From a virus, in IMG/VR virus record IMGVR_UViG_3300044756_000007, positions 1-41,931 of that record: DNA of 41,931 nt; one strand, written 5' to 3'. Below the pieces are notes generated by a model. The model was not told where the DNA came from. It made no database searches and saw only the letters and a list, made by a program, of their open reading frames with translations. Numbering within the stretch: the first letter of the stretch is position 1; each line of letters starts with the position of its first letter. Shown in pieces: positions 3,997-35,450 of the stretch. The position numbers and the translations under genes were made by a program.

Positions 3997-4085
3997 TGTG
4001 GAAGGGCCTCCGCTACCGCCAGAACGAATGTCATCGTGGCCGCGACGCCCGTGGCGAGGCAGGCGAGGATGGTGAGCGCCCTCAT
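3993..4085 (-). CDS. 30-residue membrane peptide
   Basis: A complete 30-residue frame that exactly bridges the two neighbouring genes: its ATG overlaps the stop of the GIY-YIG gene (ATGA, 4082-4085) and its TGA overlaps the next ATG (3993-3996). The sequence is one hydrophobic helix (ALTILACLATGVAATMTFVL) with a short polar tail. The double coupling argues that it is real despite its size. It has a counterpart of equal length at 9358-9450. Function unknown; membrane location inferred. Confidence 0.55.
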   Translation of the reverse strand: MRALTILACLATGVAATMTFVLAVAEALPQ

Positions 4086-5020
4086 GCCGGCACCGGGGCG
4101 CGGAGAGCCTTTTTCGCGGCTCTGTTGGCCTCGCGTTTCGCCACTCCCTCGCGATTCTTCTGAAGCCAGATAGGATCAACGGAACGCTTAGCGATCATCT
4201 CCCGGTGTTTGCGTTGCCACTCCGGATTAGCCGCCATTCGAGCCATCGCTGCTTTAAGGTTCTGTTTTCTCACCGGATCGGCATGGACTCGCACCATGGC
4301 CGCTCGTTGATTCTCACGCCAAACAGGGTCAGCGGCGCGCTTTGCCCCTCCTTCACGATTTTTCTGTTGCCATGAAGGGTCGCTAACTCTCTTGGTGAGA
4401 ATCGCACTCCGCTTCTGACGGTAATCCGGATCTGCTTCGCGCTTGGCAATCCCCGTGCGGAGTTTCTCCCACCAAGAAGGATCATTCACAAGTTTGGCTG
4501 ATACTTTACGGTGATTTTCCCTCCATGCCGGATCAGCAGCCATTCGGACCTTGGCTTGACGTTGTTTTTCTCGCCATATGGGGTCTTTCGCTCGGCGAAT
4601 AGCCGCTTGTTTGTTTTTTTCATGCCACACAGGGTCCAGGCAACGCCGGGCAATTCCTTCGTGAAGCGATTGACGCCAGATTGGATCATTCGCCAGGCGA
4701 GACGCCCACGCGCTTGTGAAGCCATCCCCGCCCTCGATTTCATTTCGGCATAAAGGATCAACGCCTATGACACCAAAAGGGACCAGTGCGGCCTCCGCTG
4801 CGTAAGCGTCGGCTTCAGTATCAAAAAACTCCATTATTTCGATGGTGAGCGCATCCAACTCTGGGTGATTAACGATCCAATTCCCAGAACCTTTGTAACG
4901 GTCGTTCAAATTGCGTGTGCTATGTTTCCCTCCATACCATTCGCCGGTTTCTTGATGCCAGGTGCAGTAAACGTAATGCCAATACCCATTGGCGTCTGGA
5001 GGCGGGATGTCCAAGATCAC
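4082..5020 (-). CDS. GIY-YIG-like endonuclease with an 11-unit repeat array
   Basis: 312 residues, GTG start coupled to recT (GTGA). Residues 14-80 resemble the GIY-YIG nuclease fold: HYVYCTWH, EWYGGKHSTRNLNDRYKGSG with R41 as the probable catalytic Arg, and a downstream EADAYAAEAAL helix carrying the probable metal-binding Glu. From residue 111 the protein is an array of eleven 17-residue units centred on Asp-Pro-x-Trp, with a basic Ala/Lys/Arg helix between. Such tails in homing endonucleases bind DNA, so this is probably a mobile or site-specific nuclease. Alternatively the array may give a scaffold or RNA-binding role. It lies between recT and xis genes without disturbing the overlaps. 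Confidence 0.75.
   Translation of the reverse strand: MILDIPPPDANGYWHYVYCTWHQETGEWYGGKHSTRNLNDRYKGSGNWIVNHPELDALTIEIMEFFDTEADAYAAEAALVPFGVIGVDPLCRNEIEGGDGFTSAWASRLANDPIWRQSLHEGIARRCLDPVWHEKNKQAAIRRAKDPIWREKQRQAKVRMAADPAWRENHRKVSAKLVNDPSWWEKLRTGIAKREADPDYRQKRSAILTKRVSDPSWQQKNREGGAKRAADPVWRENQRAAMVRVHADPVRKQNLKAAMARMAANPEWQRKHREMIAKRSVDPIWLQKNREGVAKREANRAAKKALRAPVPA
4127..4690 (-). repeat. Eleven tandem 51-bp (17-aa) units
   Basis: The Asp of the Asp-Pro motif occurs at residues 112, 129, 146, 163, 180, 197, 214, 231, 248, 265 (Asn here) and 282: ten consecutive intervals of exactly 17. Unit pattern is x-D-P-x-W-R-(E/Q)-K-x-R-x-x-x-A-K-R-x. Units differ at many codons, so the array is old or under diversifying exchange, not a recent slippage product. 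Confidence 0.9.
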
Positions 5021-5901
5021 GACACCTTCTCCAAAAACGGATCTTGGCCTGGGGCGAAAACGCCATCGTTCGGCGCGCTGGTTTCGTCAGCGGAGGTGCG
5101 CCTGATCGCCTCCTGTAACAGGTGGTCCAGACGATCACGGGCGCCGTTGCGGAGTTTGTCCTGGGCGGTTTGGACGTCACTTCTCGCGAGGATGGCATCG
5201 ACTTCCTCGCTGCCCTCGGCCGCCGCGAGTTCCAGCGCCAGCGCGTCGAGCCATTGGACAACGGTCTGTTTCTTCGGCGCGTGCGAATCCGGTTGTTCGC
5301 GGGATGTTTCGCGAACGGGCGCGGTGGCTGGTGCGGCGTGCTCGATCGTCGGGCCGGCGAAGGTATCGCGGTGAGGCTGCTGGTCGAACTCTTCCGGCGA
5401 ATAGACGCCCAGCATGACCTCCGGCGCGTGGCGGCGTGCCCAAACGCGGGTGCCGGCGTAGCAAAGCTGCTGCTCGGGTTGCTTGACCCACATGCCGTTC
5501 GTGGTTTTCGCTTCCTTCAGCCAGAGGGTTATTTCCCTCGGCTTTGTTTCGCCCTTGATGGTGCCCCGCACCATGACCTTCAAATCGGGACCCGCGCCGG
5601 AGTATTCGTATTCCAACCGGGCGGCCATGATCCCGCTGCCGTTGAGCGCCGCCGCGACAATCTTGCCCTCAAAATTTAGCTTGCCGTTGATGACCGAAGT
5701 GCAGGCGGCGACGGCGAACGGTGACATTCCCCAACGCATCGCCTGCTCCACGATGAGCAGACAATCGCCGGGATTTTTCCGCAGATGCTCTGGAATGCCG
5801 ATCTTCCCAAGCGACATCATCTCGGCGAGCCGGATGGCGCTCTCCATGTTCGTCGGCATCAGCGCGTTGGCGCTGCCGCTGGTGGGGACAATCGCGTTCA
5901 T
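5017..5901 (-). CDS. recT: RecT-family single-strand annealing protein
   Basis: 294 residues. The core (about 18-175) has the family signature: NMESAIRLAEMMSLGKIGIP, PGDCLLIVEQAMRWGMSPFA, INGKLNFEGKIVAAAL, ARLEYEYSG and TRVWARRHAPEVMLGVYSP. RecT proteins anneal complementary single strands during phage recombination and concatemer formation. The C-terminal third (180-294) is a low-complexity linker plus helical acidic tail, where partner proteins usually bind. The gene starts as TAATG with the upstream Gp157 gene. No adjacent exonuclease gene is visible; the VRR-NUC nuclease at 9447-9947 is a possible partner (inference). Confidence 0.92.
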   Translation of the reverse strand: MNAIVPTSGSANALMPTNMESAIRLAEMMSLGKIGIPEHLRKNPGDCLLIVEQAMRWGMSPFAVAACTSVINGKLNFEGKIVAAALNGSGIMAARLEYEYSGAGPDLKVMVRGTIKGETKPREITLWLKEAKTTNGMWVKQPEQQLCYAGTRVWARRHAPEVMLGVYSPEEFDQQPHRDTFAGPTIEHAAPATAPVRETSREQPDSHAPKKQTVVQWLDALALELAAAEGSEEVDAILARSDVQTAQDKLRNGARDRLDHLLQEAIRRTSADETSAPNDGVFAPGQDPFLEKVS

Positions 5902-22629: not shown

Positions 22630-23714
22630 CCACGCTTTTGGTCGGACCGGGGCAGACCTACGCCACCATCGACGCCGCCGTTGACGCCTCGGCCTCCGGC
22701 GACACCATCGAGGTCCAGGCGGGCGCCTACACCAACGACTGGCTGTCCATCGATCACGACCTGAACCTCGTCGCGGTTGGCGGGTGGGTGAAGATGGTCG
22801 CCACGGCCCAACCGCCAGACGGCAAGGCGATGATCACGGAGAGCGGGACGGTCTCGATCTCGGGCTTCGACATCTCGGGCGTGACGGTCCCCGACAACAA
22901 CGGAGCCGCGATCCGCTACCAGGGCGGTGCGCTGACGCTCGATAACGTGTTCATCCACGACAACCAGGAGGGCATCCTTGGTGCGGCGGACAGCAACGGG
23001 TCCATCACTGTCAATCGTTCCGAGTTCGCCTTCAACGGCGACGGAAGCGGCCACACCCACGGCATCTATGTCGGAGCCATCGCCAACTTCACCCTGGCCA
23101 ACAGCTACATCCACGACACCGCCGTGGGACACGAGGTCAAAAGCCGCGCCGCCAACAATGTCATCACCGGCAACCGCATCTTCGATAACGCCAGCAGTGC
23201 CAGTTACAGCATCGACCTTCCCAATGGCGGCGACGCCACGATCAGCGGCAACATCATCCAGCAAGGCCCGAACACGCAAAACCCGGCTATCATCGCTTAC
23301 GGTGAGGAGGGGGCGAGCAATGGCGCCGGAACCGTGTCGATCAGAGACAATACGATTTGCAACGATGATCCTGGCGGTTATTTGCTCCTTAACCCTGGCG
23401 GTTTTCCTGTTGGCTTTACTAATAACGTGGTCTTTGGGCTGACCAGCGGCGGCGCGATCCTCACCGATCGCCCGGCGCTCGATCTCTCGCCCATCGCCTT
23501 CCTTGGATCAGCAGCACCGCCACCGCCGCCTGATCCAACGCCGACGCTCACGCTGCTTGAGCAATATCACGCCGACGTGCTGGCGGACTTCAAGGCATGG
23601 GCGCCCACGCATCTTAAACTGTCCACGATGCCGAAGACGCTGGCGGTGCTGAACACCGAACTGAACAGCACGACCGTGCTCGGGATTATCCGGGGGGACA
23701 AATGGTCGCAGTGA
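22626..23714 (+). CDS. Second beta-helix protein
   Basis: 362 residues, GTG start in a GTGA overlap. A right-handed beta-helix covers residues 10-290: TYATIDAAVDASASGDTIEV, HGIYVGAIANFTLANSYIHD, NNVITGNRIFDNASSASYSI and ATISGNIIQQ, the carbohydrate-lyase style of rung. After a run of Pro (about 295-310) comes a helical C-terminal module (LLEQYHADVLADFKAWAPTH). Possibly a depolymerase or decoration protein carried by the virion. Confidence 0.75.
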   Translation: MTTLLVGPGQTYATIDAAVDASASGDTIEVQAGAYTNDWLSIDHDLNLVAVGGWVKMVATAQPPDGKAMITESGTVSISGFDISGVTVPDNNGAAIRYQGGALTLDNVFIHDNQEGILGAADSNGSITVNRSEFAFNGDGSGHTHGIYVGAIANFTLANSYIHDTAVGHEVKSRAANNVITGNRIFDNASSASYSIDLPNGGDATISGNIIQQGPNTQNPAIIAYGEEGASNGAGTVSIRDNTICNDDPGGYLLLNPGGFPVGFTNNVVFGLTSGGAILTDRPALDLSPIAFLGSAAPPPPPDPTPTLTLLEQYHADVLADFKAWAPTHLKLSTMPKTLAVLNTELNSTTVLGIIRGDKWSQ

Positions 23715-24865
23715 GCAGTCCGCTGTTGAGAGGCTTTGAGCAGGGCGCTGACGGCACCGACCAGTGGAACCGAATGATGCCGGGCGAGGAGCGCGGGCCG
23801 CTCACGCTCGATCCCCAGGGCGTCGCGCTGGGCCAGCAATTCCAGGCGATCAAGGCCGGGATCGAGGCACAACAGGCGCGGCCGATCTGGAACCCAAACA
23901 ACCGGGTGGGCGAGGAGTCGCTGCAATCGATGGGGATGCCGGGGCCGACGACCTACGCCGGGCCGGTTGGGCAGTTTATCGACCCCGCCACCGGACGCAT
24001 GACGGAGCAGGGCGCGGCGCGGATGCAGAACCCTGCGCTCGGATTGGATACGGGCGGCGTTGGCATGATCAAGGCGTTCCACGGCTCGCCGCACAAATTC
24101 GACGCGTTCAGCGACCACGCGATCGGCACGGGGGAGGGCGCGCAGGCATACGGCTACGGGCATTACGTGGCGGAAAACGAAGGCGTGGCGCGCGGGTATC
24201 GGGATGCGCTGACCAATAAACATCAGCCGCCCGATCTGGTGGCGACGCAAGATGCGCTTCTCCAGGAAATCGGGGCCAGTAATGACAAGGCGGCTGCTTT
24301 GACGGCGAAGGGTTTTGATTATGACAGCCCGGAGGTTCGCGCGGCGATCGACCCGCACGAACAGAACATCAAGGCGCTTCAGGATAAACTGAGCGCCATG
24401 CCTAAGCCGACAGGCCACATGTATGAGGTCAACGTCGCCGCCGATCCCGAGAAATTCCTGCACTGGGACAAGCCGCTGAGCGAGCAGCACCCGGATGTGC
24501 GGGACGCCGCGCACGCCGCGTTGATGAAAAGCGGCATCGATCGGACCACGGCCAATTATATCGTCAATAATAAGACCGGGCGCGATCTCCATTCTACTCT
24601 GGCGCGTGGCGAATATCGCCCGGATCTGATGGCGCCAGAGGCTGGTGCCCCAGGAGCGGCCCTGGCGCTGAAAGAGGCGGGCATCCCCGGAATAAAATAT
24701 CTGGATCAAGGCTCTCGTTCAGCCGGAGAAGGAAGTCATAACATCGTCGTGTTCGACCCTAAAAATTTAGAAGTTATCAGGCGGTATGGTCTGGCGGGAT
24801 TGATGACTGGGGCGGCGGGTTACGGGAACGCTTTGTCTGGAGGATCTTCAAATGACGGTCCTTGA
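23702..24865 (+). CDS. ADP-ribosyltransferase-like virion protein (ART-PolyVal type)
   Basis: 387 residues; SD GGGGGGA five bases before ATG. After a 120-residue leader, residues 123-362 match the ART domain of phage polyvalent proteins: IKAFHGSPHKFDAFSDHAIG, GEGAQAYGYGHYVAENEGVA, YEVNVAADPEKFLHWDKPLS, GIKYLDQGSRS and HNIVVFDPKNLEVIRRYG. It may modify host proteins on entry or act as a toxin. The 3' end from residue 351 is a substitute: a diverged copy of the same 18 residues lies beyond the HNH gene at 25449-25505. The last 89 bases are antisense to the HNH gene. Confidence 0.78.
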   Translation: MVAVSSPLLRGFEQGADGTDQWNRMMPGEERGPLTLDPQGVALGQQFQAIKAGIEAQQARPIWNPNNRVGEESLQSMGMPGPTTYAGPVGQFIDPATGRMTEQGAARMQNPALGLDTGGVGMIKAFHGSPHKFDAFSDHAIGTGEGAQAYGYGHYVAENEGVARGYRDALTNKHQPPDLVATQDALLQEIGASNDKAAALTAKGFDYDSPEVRAAIDPHEQNIKALQDKLSAMPKPTGHMYEVNVAADPEKFLHWDKPLSEQHPDVRDAAHAALMKSGIDRTTANYIVNNKTGRDLHSTLARGEYRPDLMAPEAGAPGAALALKEAGIPGIKYLDQGSRSAGEGSHNIVVFDPKNLEVIRRYGLAGLMTGAAGYGNALSGGSSNDGP

Positions 24866-25412
24866 AGCGATCTTTGCTCCACGCATCTCGCATGTTGTCG
24901 CCTTGCGTTCCCAGAAACAGATGGGCCGGGTTCACGCACAATCTGTTGTCGCATCGGTGGCAGATACATCCGCCGTGAGCGCCGCCGAGGTTGGGAATTT
25001 CGCCGAAGTGGAGTTCGTAACTGACCCGGTGGGCCTGCTGCCTGAAGCTGTAAGCACCGATAGCGACGCGTCCATAACCATTTGGCCCCGGTCTGAGCGT
25101 CCAGTTCCAGCAGTCATCGGGACCACGTTTATCGACGTGCTTCCAGAACATCGCGGCGATGGTTTCGGGTGTGACGGGCTTTCTGCGGCCAATTCCGCCG
25201 CATTCTTTCGAACAGAACCGCGTGGGTGGTTTCGTCCCGTGGGTTCGCTCGGGAAACGGCTTGCCGCACACACCGCAGGCGACAAAAACCTTGTCTTTCG
25301 GCCTGGCATCTCGGCACGGGATCGAACAATACAGGTGGTCGGTGTGTCTCTTTCGGAACGTCTTGCCGCATACAGGGCAAGGCGTGTCGCCATACTTTAT
25401 CGGTGGTGCCAT
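24777..25412 (-). CDS. HNH endonuclease with two N-terminal zinc knuckles
   Basis: 211 residues, opposite to all neighbours. Residues 12-70 hold two Cys4-type modules (CPVCGKTF ... CSIPCRD and CGVCGKPF ... FCSKECGG). The HNH domain (about 100-180) reads CWNWTLRPGPNGYGRVAIG, AHRVSYELHFGEIP, CHRCDNRLCVNPAHLFLGT and DNMRDAWSKD, the HNH_3 type with catalytic His in the HRV/CHRC region. It is a free-standing mobile endonuclease, probably with its own promoter near 25428-25449. The last 30 codons run antisense into the ART gene. Confidence 0.88.
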   Translation of the reverse strand: MAPPIKYGDTPCPVCGKTFRKRHTDHLYCSIPCRDARPKDKVFVACGVCGKPFPERTHGTKPPTRFCSKECGGIGRRKPVTPETIAAMFWKHVDKRGPDDCWNWTLRPGPNGYGRVAIGAYSFRQQAHRVSYELHFGEIPNLGGAHGGCICHRCDNRLCVNPAHLFLGTQGDNMRDAWSKDRFKDRHLKILQTKRSRNPPPQSSIPPDHTA

Positions 25413-25449
25413 GTCAGGATTATGCCGATATTGACTAGAAAGTCAATAT
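25413..25449 (-). promoter_or_regulatory. Hairpin and possible promoter of the HNH gene
   Basis: ATATTGACT (25428-25436) and AGTCAATAT (25441-25449) are perfect complements around AGAA. On the minus strand this region also gives TTGACT, a 16-base spacer and CATAAT, a reasonable promoter ending close to the HNH start at 25412. The perfect dyad could instead be an operator or the endonuclease's own binding site. Confidence 0.45.
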
Positions 25450-25550
25450 TCGACCCCGCCACGATGGAAATCATCCGCCGCTACGGCCTCGCCGGCCTGA
25501 TGGGCGGCGGCGCGGCGGCGCTGGCCGGTGGCGGAAACCGGGAACAATGA
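25449..25550 (+). pseudogene. Displaced original 3' end of the ART gene
   Basis: In frame, this encodes FDPATMEIIRRYGLAGLM followed by a Gly/Ala-rich tail and the stop at 25548-25550. It matches residues 351-368 of the intact ART protein (14 of 18 identical) but with different synonymous codons. It has no start of its own. The stop overlaps the next start as ATGA, as elsewhere in this genome, showing that this was the native gene end before the endonuclease arrived. Confidence 0.82.
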
Positions 25551-33047: not shown

Positions 33048-34562
33048 ATGTCTGACACATTGGCAACCTTAACCGACGCCCTGAAGCCCAAAACCGGGAT
33101 GCGGCGGATTCCGTTTCCGTTCGAGAGTTATGAACACCCTAGTCTGCCGCTGACCGCCAAGCGCCTCATCAACATTATGGCCGAGAGACTGCCCGCCGAC
33201 GCGCGTGTCGCCGCCGCGCTGGTCTCGTCGCCCTCGCTTCAGGCGTGGGACACGGCGGTGGGCGGTTCAGGGCCGATCGGCACTGGCCCGATATTGGCGA
33301 TGAACGACGACATGCCGGGCCGCGTCTACATCGTGTCGGGCACGCATTTCTACCGGCTGTCGTTTCCGCTCGCGGGCGGCGTGACGGTCGAGGATCTTGG
33401 TAGCGTCGGAACCGCCGACAGCGGCACCGGCACATGGAACAGCTTCGTCACCATCGCCGCCGGCCCGACCGCCGCCGTCGTCTGCGTGGCGCCGCGCGCC
33501 TATACCTGCGGGCACGTCATCGGTGACCCGTTGAACCTGATCACTGATCCCGACTTTCCCGGCGCGACCTCGGTCGCTTATGTCGATGGGTATTTCGCGT
33601 TTTCGGCGCCGGGCAACACGTCGCAGTGGTTCATCTCGCGCCTGCTCGATCCGTTGTCTTTCGACGCGCTCGACTTCGTGTTCAGCGACGCCGTGCCGAA
33701 CGTGGTGCGGCGCATCATAAACCATCGCGGCCAGTTGTGGACGCTCGGCGAAGGCGGCTTCGAGGTCTGGTATGACGCCGGGACGAGCGGGCTGGAAACC
33801 ACGCCGGGCACCTCGTTCTTCCCGTTCCGGCGCATGGCGGGCGGCGTGGTGCCGATCGGCACATCATCGGCCATGTCGGTCTGCCGCGCCGATCAGTCGG
33901 TGTTCTGGCTCGGCATCGACGGTTTGGTCTACCGCAGCGACGGCTACACGCCGAAACGAATATCGACGCACGCCATCGAGGCGATCATCGGCACCAACAC
34001 GGTCGGGTTGCACGCTTTTACTCATCCATTTCGGGGTCATTGGTTCTACTGCCTGACGACGTTCGAGGGCCGCACGCTGGTCTACGACATCGCCACCGGC
34101 AACTGGCACGAACGCTCGACCAGCACGGACGGGGTTGGGCCATGGCGGGCGGGCACGGCGGCGGTGGACAACAACTCGATTCACCTGCTCGGCGATCGGA
34201 CCACGGGCGCGCTTTATTATCTGGTGATGGCGCCGACCGATGCCGGGGTCACGATCATCCGCCAGGCGACGCTGCCACCGTTGTGGGCCGATACGCGACG
34301 AGCGTTTTGCTCGCGGGTCGAGGTCGAGATGGAGTCCGGCGGCGCGCAGTCTCCGGGGTTGGTTGAACTCAACTGGTCCGACGATGGCGGGCGGACGTTC
34401 CCCGCGGGGCGAGACATGTCTGCTGGCGTGCCGGGCGATTACCGTCACAGGGTGTTCACGACGCGGTTGGGCTCGTTCAGACAACGGACGTTCAGGATTA
34501 CGACGCATGGACTGACGCGGTTATATTCGCTATCAGCAGATATAACTCAAGGAGCCCATTAA
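33048..34562 (+). CDS. Tail hub / packaged-DNA stabilisation protein (P22 gp10-like)
   Basis: 504 residues (P22 gp10 has 472). Typical features: LTAKRLINIMAERLPADARV, VYIVSGTHFYRLSFPL, TSVAYVDGYFAFSAPGNTSQ, LWTLGEGGFEVWYDAG and a C-terminal ELNWSDDGGRTFPAGRD, consistent with a beta-propeller-like hub that plugs the portal after packaging. Its last codons (ADITQGAH and TAA) are a recoded copy of the sequence now at the end of the HNH gene (35424-35450). They also supply the AAGGAG SD for that HNH gene. Confidence 0.85.
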   Translation: MSDTLATLTDALKPKTGMRRIPFPFESYEHPSLPLTAKRLINIMAERLPADARVAAALVSSPSLQAWDTAVGGSGPIGTGPILAMNDDMPGRVYIVSGTHFYRLSFPLAGGVTVEDLGSVGTADSGTGTWNSFVTIAAGPTAAVVCVAPRAYTCGHVIGDPLNLITDPDFPGATSVAYVDGYFAFSAPGNTSQWFISRLLDPLSFDALDFVFSDAVPNVVRRIINHRGQLWTLGEGGFEVWYDAGTSGLETTPGTSFFPFRRMAGGVVPIGTSSAMSVCRADQSVFWLGIDGLVYRSDGYTPKRISTHAIEAIIGTNTVGLHAFTHPFRGHWFYCLTTFEGRTLVYDIATGNWHERSTSTDGVGPWRAGTAAVDNNSIHLLGDRTTGALYYLVMAPTDAGVTIIRQATLPPLWADTRRAFCSRVEVEMESGGAQSPGLVELNWSDDGGRTFPAGRDMSAGVPGDYRHRVFTTRLGSFRQRTFRITTHGLTRLYSLSADITQGAH

Positions 34563-35450
34563 ATGACCGCGCCTCGGCCGTTGCCCTCACAAGAAAGGCT
34601 AAAGGAACTCTTCGATTACGATCCCATCGTGGGAACACTCACGTGGCGTCGGCGCGACGATATAGACCCAGGCTTTAATGGCAGGTTCGCCGGAAAGAAA
34701 GCGGGTTCCTTGAGTGATCGTTATTGGACTGTTTCGGTTGACTCTCGCCCGATGTCTTATCACCGCGTCATCTGGAAAATGACATATGGAACTGAGCCAC
34801 CTGAAGTGGATCACATAAACGGAAACACATCAGACAATCGTATTGTGAACTTGCGTGCATCGTCTCGGCTTCTAAACGCTAAAAATAAAGCTCCCAATAA
34901 AGGAAAGAAGTTACCTAAAGGCGTGACCTTGGGTAACAACTGCGTGAATTACGAGGCGCGTATTGTCTCTAACGGCGTTAGAGAAGTACTCGGATACTTC
35001 GCTACGCCTGAGGATGCTCATCAAGCCTATCTGGAAGCGGCCGAAGCACGGTTTGGAGAATGGGCAAGGGCCAGCGATCCGCGACGGGAATACAGTCGAA
35101 CCAAAAAGCCACGCGCCCCCGTATCAGAGGAAACGCGAGCGAAGATCAGCGCTACTCTAACGGGTAGTAAGAGAGTTTTCACGGAAGCGCATCGGGCCGC
35201 GCTTAGTGCGGCTGGGAAAGGCCGGAAGCGTGGGCCTATATCCGAAGAACATAGGGCGCATCTGAGCGAGGTAAGGAAGGGAAAGAAGCGACCGCCGTTT
35301 TCCGCCGAGTGGCGGGAAGCTATCGCCGCCGGTATGCGAGGGAAGAAACGCGGGCCTCCATCCGAGGAAACCAGGATGAAACGGCGCGCGTCCATGTTGG
35401 CTTATTTCCAACGCAAGGCCGACGCCGACATCACGCCGGGGGCGCACTGA
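34536..35450 (+). mobile_element. 888-bp HNH insertion at the end of the gp10-like gene
   Basis: The eight-residue tail Ala-Asp-Ile-Thr-x-Gly-Ala-His plus stop appears at 34536-34562 and again at 35424-35450, offset by 888 bp (a multiple of three). All seven identical residues use different codons in the two copies (GCA/GCC, GAT/GAC, ATA/ATC, ACT/ACG, GGA/GGG, GCC/GCG, CAT/CAC). The distal copy keeps the TGATG link to the next gene, so it is the original end. Confidence 0.78.
34563..35450 (+). CDS. HNH endonuclease with AP2-like and NUMOD3 repeats
   Basis: 295 residues, SD AAGGAG eight bases before ATG. An HNH_3 nuclease lies at about 55-105 (YHRVIWKMTYGTEPPEVDHI, NGNTSDNRIVNLRASS). An AP2-like DNA-binding domain follows (GVTLGNNCVNYEARIVS, GYFATPEDAHQAYLEAAEAR). 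Residues 186-275 are five NUMOD3-type units with Ser/Thr-Glu starts at 188, 207, 227, 247 and 267. The final ADITPGAH is not endonuclease-specific but the old end of the gp10-like gene. The lower GC of the body fits recent arrival. Confidence 0.9.
   Translation: MTAPRPLPSQERLKELFDYDPIVGTLTWRRRDDIDPGFNGRFAGKKAGSLSDRYWTVSVDSRPMSYHRVIWKMTYGTEPPEVDHINGNTSDNRIVNLRASSRLLNAKNKAPNKGKKLPKGVTLGNNCVNYEARIVSNGVREVLGYFATPEDAHQAYLEAAEARFGEWARASDPRREYSRTKKPRAPVSEETRAKISATLTGSKRVFTEAHRAALSAAGKGRKRGPISEEHRAHLSEVRKGKKRPPFSAEWREAIAAGMRGKKRGPPSEETRMKRRASMLAYFQRKADADITPGAH

Follow-up and report, generated by a model that had tools for sequence, protein, structure and literature searches.

The window (the whole stretch of DNA analysed, 41.9 kb in length) is an IMG/VR virus record. 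It carries a gene for a P22 gp10-like head closure protein, followed by an HNH endonuclease gene and a tail fibre gene. The features of this locus are as follows:

33048-34562, + strand: gp10-like ORF, P22 gp10-like head closure Hc3 (phrog_578, PHROG 578, E=3.9e-70)
33048..34492, + strand: native body of the gp10-like gene, 90% nt identity to the HNH-free relative L002 up to ~34492
34493..34562, + strand: incoming, non-native 3' end of the gp10-like gene, ~23-24 codons including the stop TAA; the C-terminus is restored in other codons
34549-34554, + strand: AAGGAG within the incoming tail, Shine-Dalgarno-like by sequence, with the HNH ATG 8 nt downstream
34563..35450, + strand: HNH endonuclease ORF with HNH_3 domain, HNH PHROG 99 region and NUMOD3 motif, then the fused tail
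35421..35450, + strand: native gp10 tail in its displaced position (gac gcc gac atc acg ccg ggg gcg cac tga), which forms the C-terminal end of the HNH ORF by in-frame fusion; 9/9 codons as in L002
35450..35995, + strand: next gene, PHROG 11393 tail fibre; its start overlaps the HNH stop, with a TGATG link as in HNH-free relatives

The gp10-like ORF ends in LYSLSADITQGAH*, the last residues being ADITQGAH (gca gat ata act caa gga gcc cat taa), and the HNH ORF starts at the base directly after it (34563). The HNH ORF ends in ..KADADITPGAH* (gcc gac atc acg ccg ggg gcg cac tga TGG) and its TGATGG still overlaps the start of the next gene at 35450. The two C-termini have seven of their last eight residues in common, and all seven are encoded by different codons (7/7). 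The preliminary description had reported these recoded tail copies on either side of the HNH gene, the double use of the upstream copy as an AAGGAG site and the fusion of the downstream copy to the HNH C-terminus with its TGATG link, all of which was confirmed.

The protein encoded at 34563-35450 belongs to the HNH endonucleases, with matches to PF13392 (HNH_3, E=7e-14, above cut-off) and phrog_99 (E=5.5e-51); the NUMOD3 motif was recognized by PF07460 (E=1.7e-5). Its catalytic activity is putative, as predicted from the domains. A sequence search of PDB chains with this protein gave no match, and a GTDB scan gave one distant homologue. By its ORF layout the locus is not of the group I intron or intein type: gp10 has an intact ORF that terminates at a stop codon of its own ahead of the HNH start, so splicing is not required for an intact gp10.

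Comparison with HNH-free relatives

When viral contigs were scanned with the gp10 protein, 35 relatives were obtained. In the HNH-free contigs L002, L004-L009 and L036 (gp10 ~84-95% protein identity) the gene ends in ..ADI..GAH, and TGATG joins it straight to the next gene. The L002 3' end (tga tgg included) is that of the downstream copy in the window, identical at 27/27 nt of the nine codons, and L002 shares 9/9 codons with the downstream copy versus 0/7 with the upstream one. The downstream copy is therefore the displaced native gp10 tail, and the upstream tail arrived with the HNH gene.

In blastn, similarity between the window and L002 ends at ~34492 and collinearity returns at 35421; a cassette of 928 bp (34493-35420) occupies the place of ~40 bp near the gp10 3' end in L002. 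The recoded stretch of the preliminary description is thus real, although it is longer than the eight codons given there and covers ~34493-34562. Same-codon usage with L002 is 333/442 in the gp10 body and drops to 4/16 over the final 24 codons (P = 3e-5). Over these last 24 codons the nt identity is 56% to L002 and 97-100% to the HNH-carrying L003, which was the sole match in a scan for the recoded tail. The G+C content of the incoming tail is 0.46 versus 0.65 in the gp10 body.

In the last 13 gp10 codons, third-position G+C amounts to 0.15 for the window and L003, 0.38 for L037 and 0.46-0.92 for the HNH-free relatives, with 0.54 for the HNH gene; the comparison of gp10 ends proposed earlier thus gave GC-rich codons followed by TGATG in the relatives, and no HNH-free gp10 with an A/T-rich end. 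Pairs of native tails show 1-4 codon differences out of 7, and only 4 separate L006 or L009 from the upstream copy. Nor is ADITPGAH a conserved part of this HNH family, the second finding that would have spoken against the earlier proposal: a 79%-identical homologue (L037) retains only GAH, and more distant homologues are without it.

An anchored comparison of C-termini covering 135 HNH loci gave the gp10/HNH pair a score of 36, third in rank after L085 (117) and L074 (66), with a 99% null value of 25 that is itself inflated by L085-L074 cross pairs. The match between the two tails is not due to chance. A generic six-frame flank comparison missed the pair because eight residues are too short; the C-terminus-anchored test caught it.

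The gp10-HNH junction is present in the window, L003, L037 and L052 and absent in L002, L004-L009 and others. L003 has the same upstream gp10 tail and HNH start as the window, with 75.6% codon sharing in the gp10 body and 23/24 shared in the last 24 codons (P=0.012). The 79%-identical HNH protein occupies the same site in L037 (and L052), where the gp10 ahead of it has only 71% identity. The L037 gp10 gene ends in SADISPGAN TAA and its HNH gene in EGAH TGATG, which is a shorter remnant of the native gp10 tail. The right junction of the element is visible only in the window and, truncated, in L037, since L003 and L052 end within the HNH gene. On a tree of gp10 bodies the presence of the HNH gene is patchy and requires 2-3 gains or losses.

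Endonuclease genes also separate the portal gene from the 5' side of the gp10-like gene in two other podoviruses, L239 (MW202483.1) and L238 (MW202674.1), which makes this neighbourhood a repeated landing area.

The second HNH site and recurrence at other loci

The preliminary description had spoken of two unrelated HNH proteins that use the same strategy in this genome. The features of the other site, here called the second, are:

23702..24865, + strand: second host gene, weak ART-PolyVal similarity, with the non-native tail FDPKNLEVIRRYGLAGLM..
24777..25412, - strand: second HNH gene, PHROG 1872 type, convergent; 89 bp antisense overlap with the non-native tail
25449..25550, + strand: displaced native tail of the second host gene, FDPATMEIIRRYGLAGLM..NREQ*; 18/18 residues and 91% nt identical to the HNH-free L056 over the motif

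The homologue of the second host gene in the HNH-free L056 ends in FDPATMEIIRRYGLAGLM.., as does the far copy in the window, and L056 shares 12/16 codons with this displaced copy and 3/13 with the tail of the host gene itself. L147 and L146 have convergent homologues of the second HNH gene where this host gene ends, and L147 again has a displaced tail, so that the earlier reading of this site holds. L054 and L055 were unusable as empty sites, being without a homologous C-terminus. The two HNH proteins of the window show marginal BLASTP similarity (20.8 bits), and both match HNH_3. Within the overlap (24777-24865) the C-terminal codons of the second HNH gene lie antisense to those of the non-native tail of the host gene (RRYGLAGLM..), and L147 and L146 show comparable convergent overlaps.

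The survey covered 143 distinct further HNH loci, fetched mainly with two HNH alignments. A tail signature was seen at ~6/145 distinct loci, the two in the window included, and in addition at L037, which was found by position; the hosts are three unrelated genes at their 3' ends and one gene at its 5' end. In L085:1307-2376 and L074:1175-2355 a gene unrelated to gp10 and to the second host gene ends in FGA(S/T)VVKTTVISK and is followed by an HNH ORF with the same C-terminal peptide in other codons. The displaced tail is fused in frame to the HNH ORF; in L074 the fusion is broken by a frameshift. The HNH-free L226, L232 and L234-L237 match the displaced copy. Displaced copies share more native codons than full-gene tails in 4/4 comparisons (9/9 v 0/7, 12/16 v 3/13, 19/28 v 11/24, 25/28 v 9/25), the L085 contrast being non-significant by itself (P=0.16).

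At L101:1700-2403 the arrangement concerns a gene 5' end: a short MALLDQLNEGSFRGAKFLVTSATTSGGRK start is followed by an antisense HNH gene and then by a full DNA-circularisation-like gene with a differently spelled start. L101 may be read as the mirror case, in which the short N-terminus MALLDQLNEGSFRGAKFLVTSATTSGGRK is native-like and the candidate displaced native end; relatives of its host gene in named phages are distant only (~27%).

Tail duplication was found in 0/15 HNH loci sampled from named phage records, and the signature is therefore not universal. Judged by these sequence comparisons, gene-end replacement by HNH genes is real and recurrent, but a minority design in the surveyed loci. 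The general mode of entry suggested earlier is supported as a recurrent one (three genes at the 3' end, one at the 5' end) that concerns a minority of loci (~6/145 loci, 0/15 loci of named phages).

Two further observations concern other endonuclease-like genes. A third one in the window (4082-5020, - strand; PHROG 314 homing endonuclease, E=2.8e-12) has many DP.W..K motif repeats and adjoins the gene at 5017-5901; no tail duplication was seen there. L043 and L044 have single ORFs of ~500 aa with three tandem HNH-like units.

Proposed mechanism and alternatives

The gp10 locus is interpreted, with good confidence, as a free-standing HNH homing element that enters by replacement of a gene 3' end. 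The cassette consists of a first 70 bp with an alternative gp10 ending and TAA, and then of an HNH ORF that reads in frame into the native last nine codons; this gp10-HNH junction is shared by other contigs, and other genes show the design as well. During a mixed infection, the native gp10 3' end would be cut by the HNH enzyme and the break repaired from the HNH-carrying genome. The cassette would thereby be copied in, with the gp10 body serving as homology arm on the left and the displaced native tail together with the next gene on the right. The incoming tail would keep gp10 functional without rebuilding the cleavage site, and in the window copy it would also provide the Shine-Dalgarno-like site of the HNH gene, while the displaced tail alone would be too short to form a site. 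As the donor still has the last nine native codons, the cleavage site would have to reach to the left of them; the best candidate for the cleavage or recognition region is L002:2779-2818, the native segment absent from the displaced copy.

The recoding is plausibly an adaptation against self-cleavage. The codon differences may also simply reflect a diverged donor allele and not selected recoding, given that native tails vary at 1-4 of 7 codons. An account built on such divergence is possible, though clearly less probable than the homing element with a protective tail: the HNH gene inserted in a distant phage, the flanking gp10 tail was co-converted with it, and the codon differences arose by ordinary divergence, without any bearing on resistance. 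Third positions do vary among native tails, the window and L003 are more alike in the tail than in the body, as expected of co-conversion, and the low G+C content of the tail fits a foreign source. However, in every system tested the codons of the full-gene tail have diverged more than those of the body (significantly in 3/4), and this account agrees with the favoured one in architecture and mobility, the only point of difference being whether the divergence plays a role.

The gp10-derived peptide at the C-terminal end of the HNH protein is probably passive, as L037 has lost most of it and L074 is frameshifted. That it is functional, for example in bringing the nuclease into the virion or in regulation, and was kept for that purpose, is improbable: the fusions in the window and L085 are in frame, but L037 retains GAH alone, L074 has the frameshift and the second HNH gene of the window lies on the other strand. 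Slightly more doubtful still is a target-site duplication, by which a staggered-cut insertion would have produced a second gp10 tail on the spot, with later drift of one of the two. It would explain a gp10 tail on both sides of the insert; yet the displaced copy still matches L002 at 9/9 codons, every shared residue is spelled differently in the full-gene copy, the odd tail is common to the window and L003 despite differing gp10 bodies, and the displaced and incoming segments are unequal (9 v ~24 codons). In-place duplication with drift was therefore rejected. Chance C-terminal similarity or an assembly chimera, to which the mere eight residues at the gp10 site might point, has a negligible probability and was rejected, being contradicted by the junction in the independent contigs L003, L037 and L052, by the native DNA identity with L002 and by the third rank of 135 in the anchored test.

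Extending the homing element with gene-end replacement beyond gp10 is more tentative. Phages may carry a general class of HNH genes that invade gene ends by means of a recoded end, at the 3' end or, with the HNH gene antisense, at the 5' end; this has somewhat less than an even chance of being correct. In some of them, the family of the second HNH gene (HNH2), the 3' coding sequence of the nuclease would be the new tail of the host gene on the other strand, so a resistance tail would be inseparable from the nuclease.

Relation to known elements and significance

The architecture is already known from the mobile ORFs (mORFs) of fungal mitochondria, found in atp6, atp9, cox2 and nad3 of Glomus sp. 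and in atp6 of Allomyces macrogynus, where a foreign C-terminal segment replaces the end of the host gene and the native C-terminus is displaced downstream (PMC3630166). There the displaced C-terminus has 91% identity to relatives and 63.5% to the incoming one, the differences being mostly synonymous (PMC3630166). As in mORFs, the endonuclease ORF in the window phage brings a foreign gene end and the native end lies downstream. Unlike the mitochondrial mORFs, which are of LAGLIDADG or GIY-YIG type, the enzyme is HNH, the displaced tail is fused in frame to it and the translational overlap with the next gene is kept.

The yeast WHO elements (Torulaspora, Lachancea) replace the FBA1 3' end by a resistant allele, and the old 3' end, displaced downstream, is the second homology arm; cleavage is allele-specific (PMC7282813). 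They have an HO-like endonuclease with zinc finger, a nuclear yeast gene as target, tails of ~400 bp and tandem clusters, whereas the phage elements have HNH enzymes, displaced tails of ~9-33 codons, single copies and a compact phage operon. The window element is not a WHO element proper, having HNH_3 and NUMOD3 and a gp10 target in place of a HO-like (LAGLIDADG) zinc-finger enzyme and an FBA1 target. It shows three features of the gene-end-replacing (mORF/WHO) type: a diverged tail that completes the gene, a displaced native end equal to that of element-free relatives, and a presence/absence polymorphism.

The free-standing homing endonucleases of T4-type phages (seg and mob, the latter HNH) are likewise phage-borne, intronless and located between conserved genes, with co-conversion of flanks; according to the available text of PMC2988022, they are intergenic and their cleavage sites lie at distances of hundreds to thousands of bp, and no element-supplied host-gene tail is described there, in contrast to the window element. 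Reviews and surveys of phages describe free-standing endonucleases between genes (PMC2988022, PMC10448857, PMC12724721), and the available portions of these three sources contain no description of displaced or recoded host-gene tails. In the literature searched, mainly freely accessible papers, no phage or HNH precedent for gene-end replacement was found, and the phage/HNH version appears to be new.

Gene-tail replacement is thereby extended from fungal mitochondria and yeast to phages and HNH enzymes. A selfish nuclease gene can occupy a tightly packed phage operon with the virion gene unharmed. The proposal is directly testable because the sensitive and the proposed resistant alleles are both in hand. 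For uncharacterised HNH genes, a displaced native tail next to the nuclease, or fused with it, would be a signature of the likely cleavage site.
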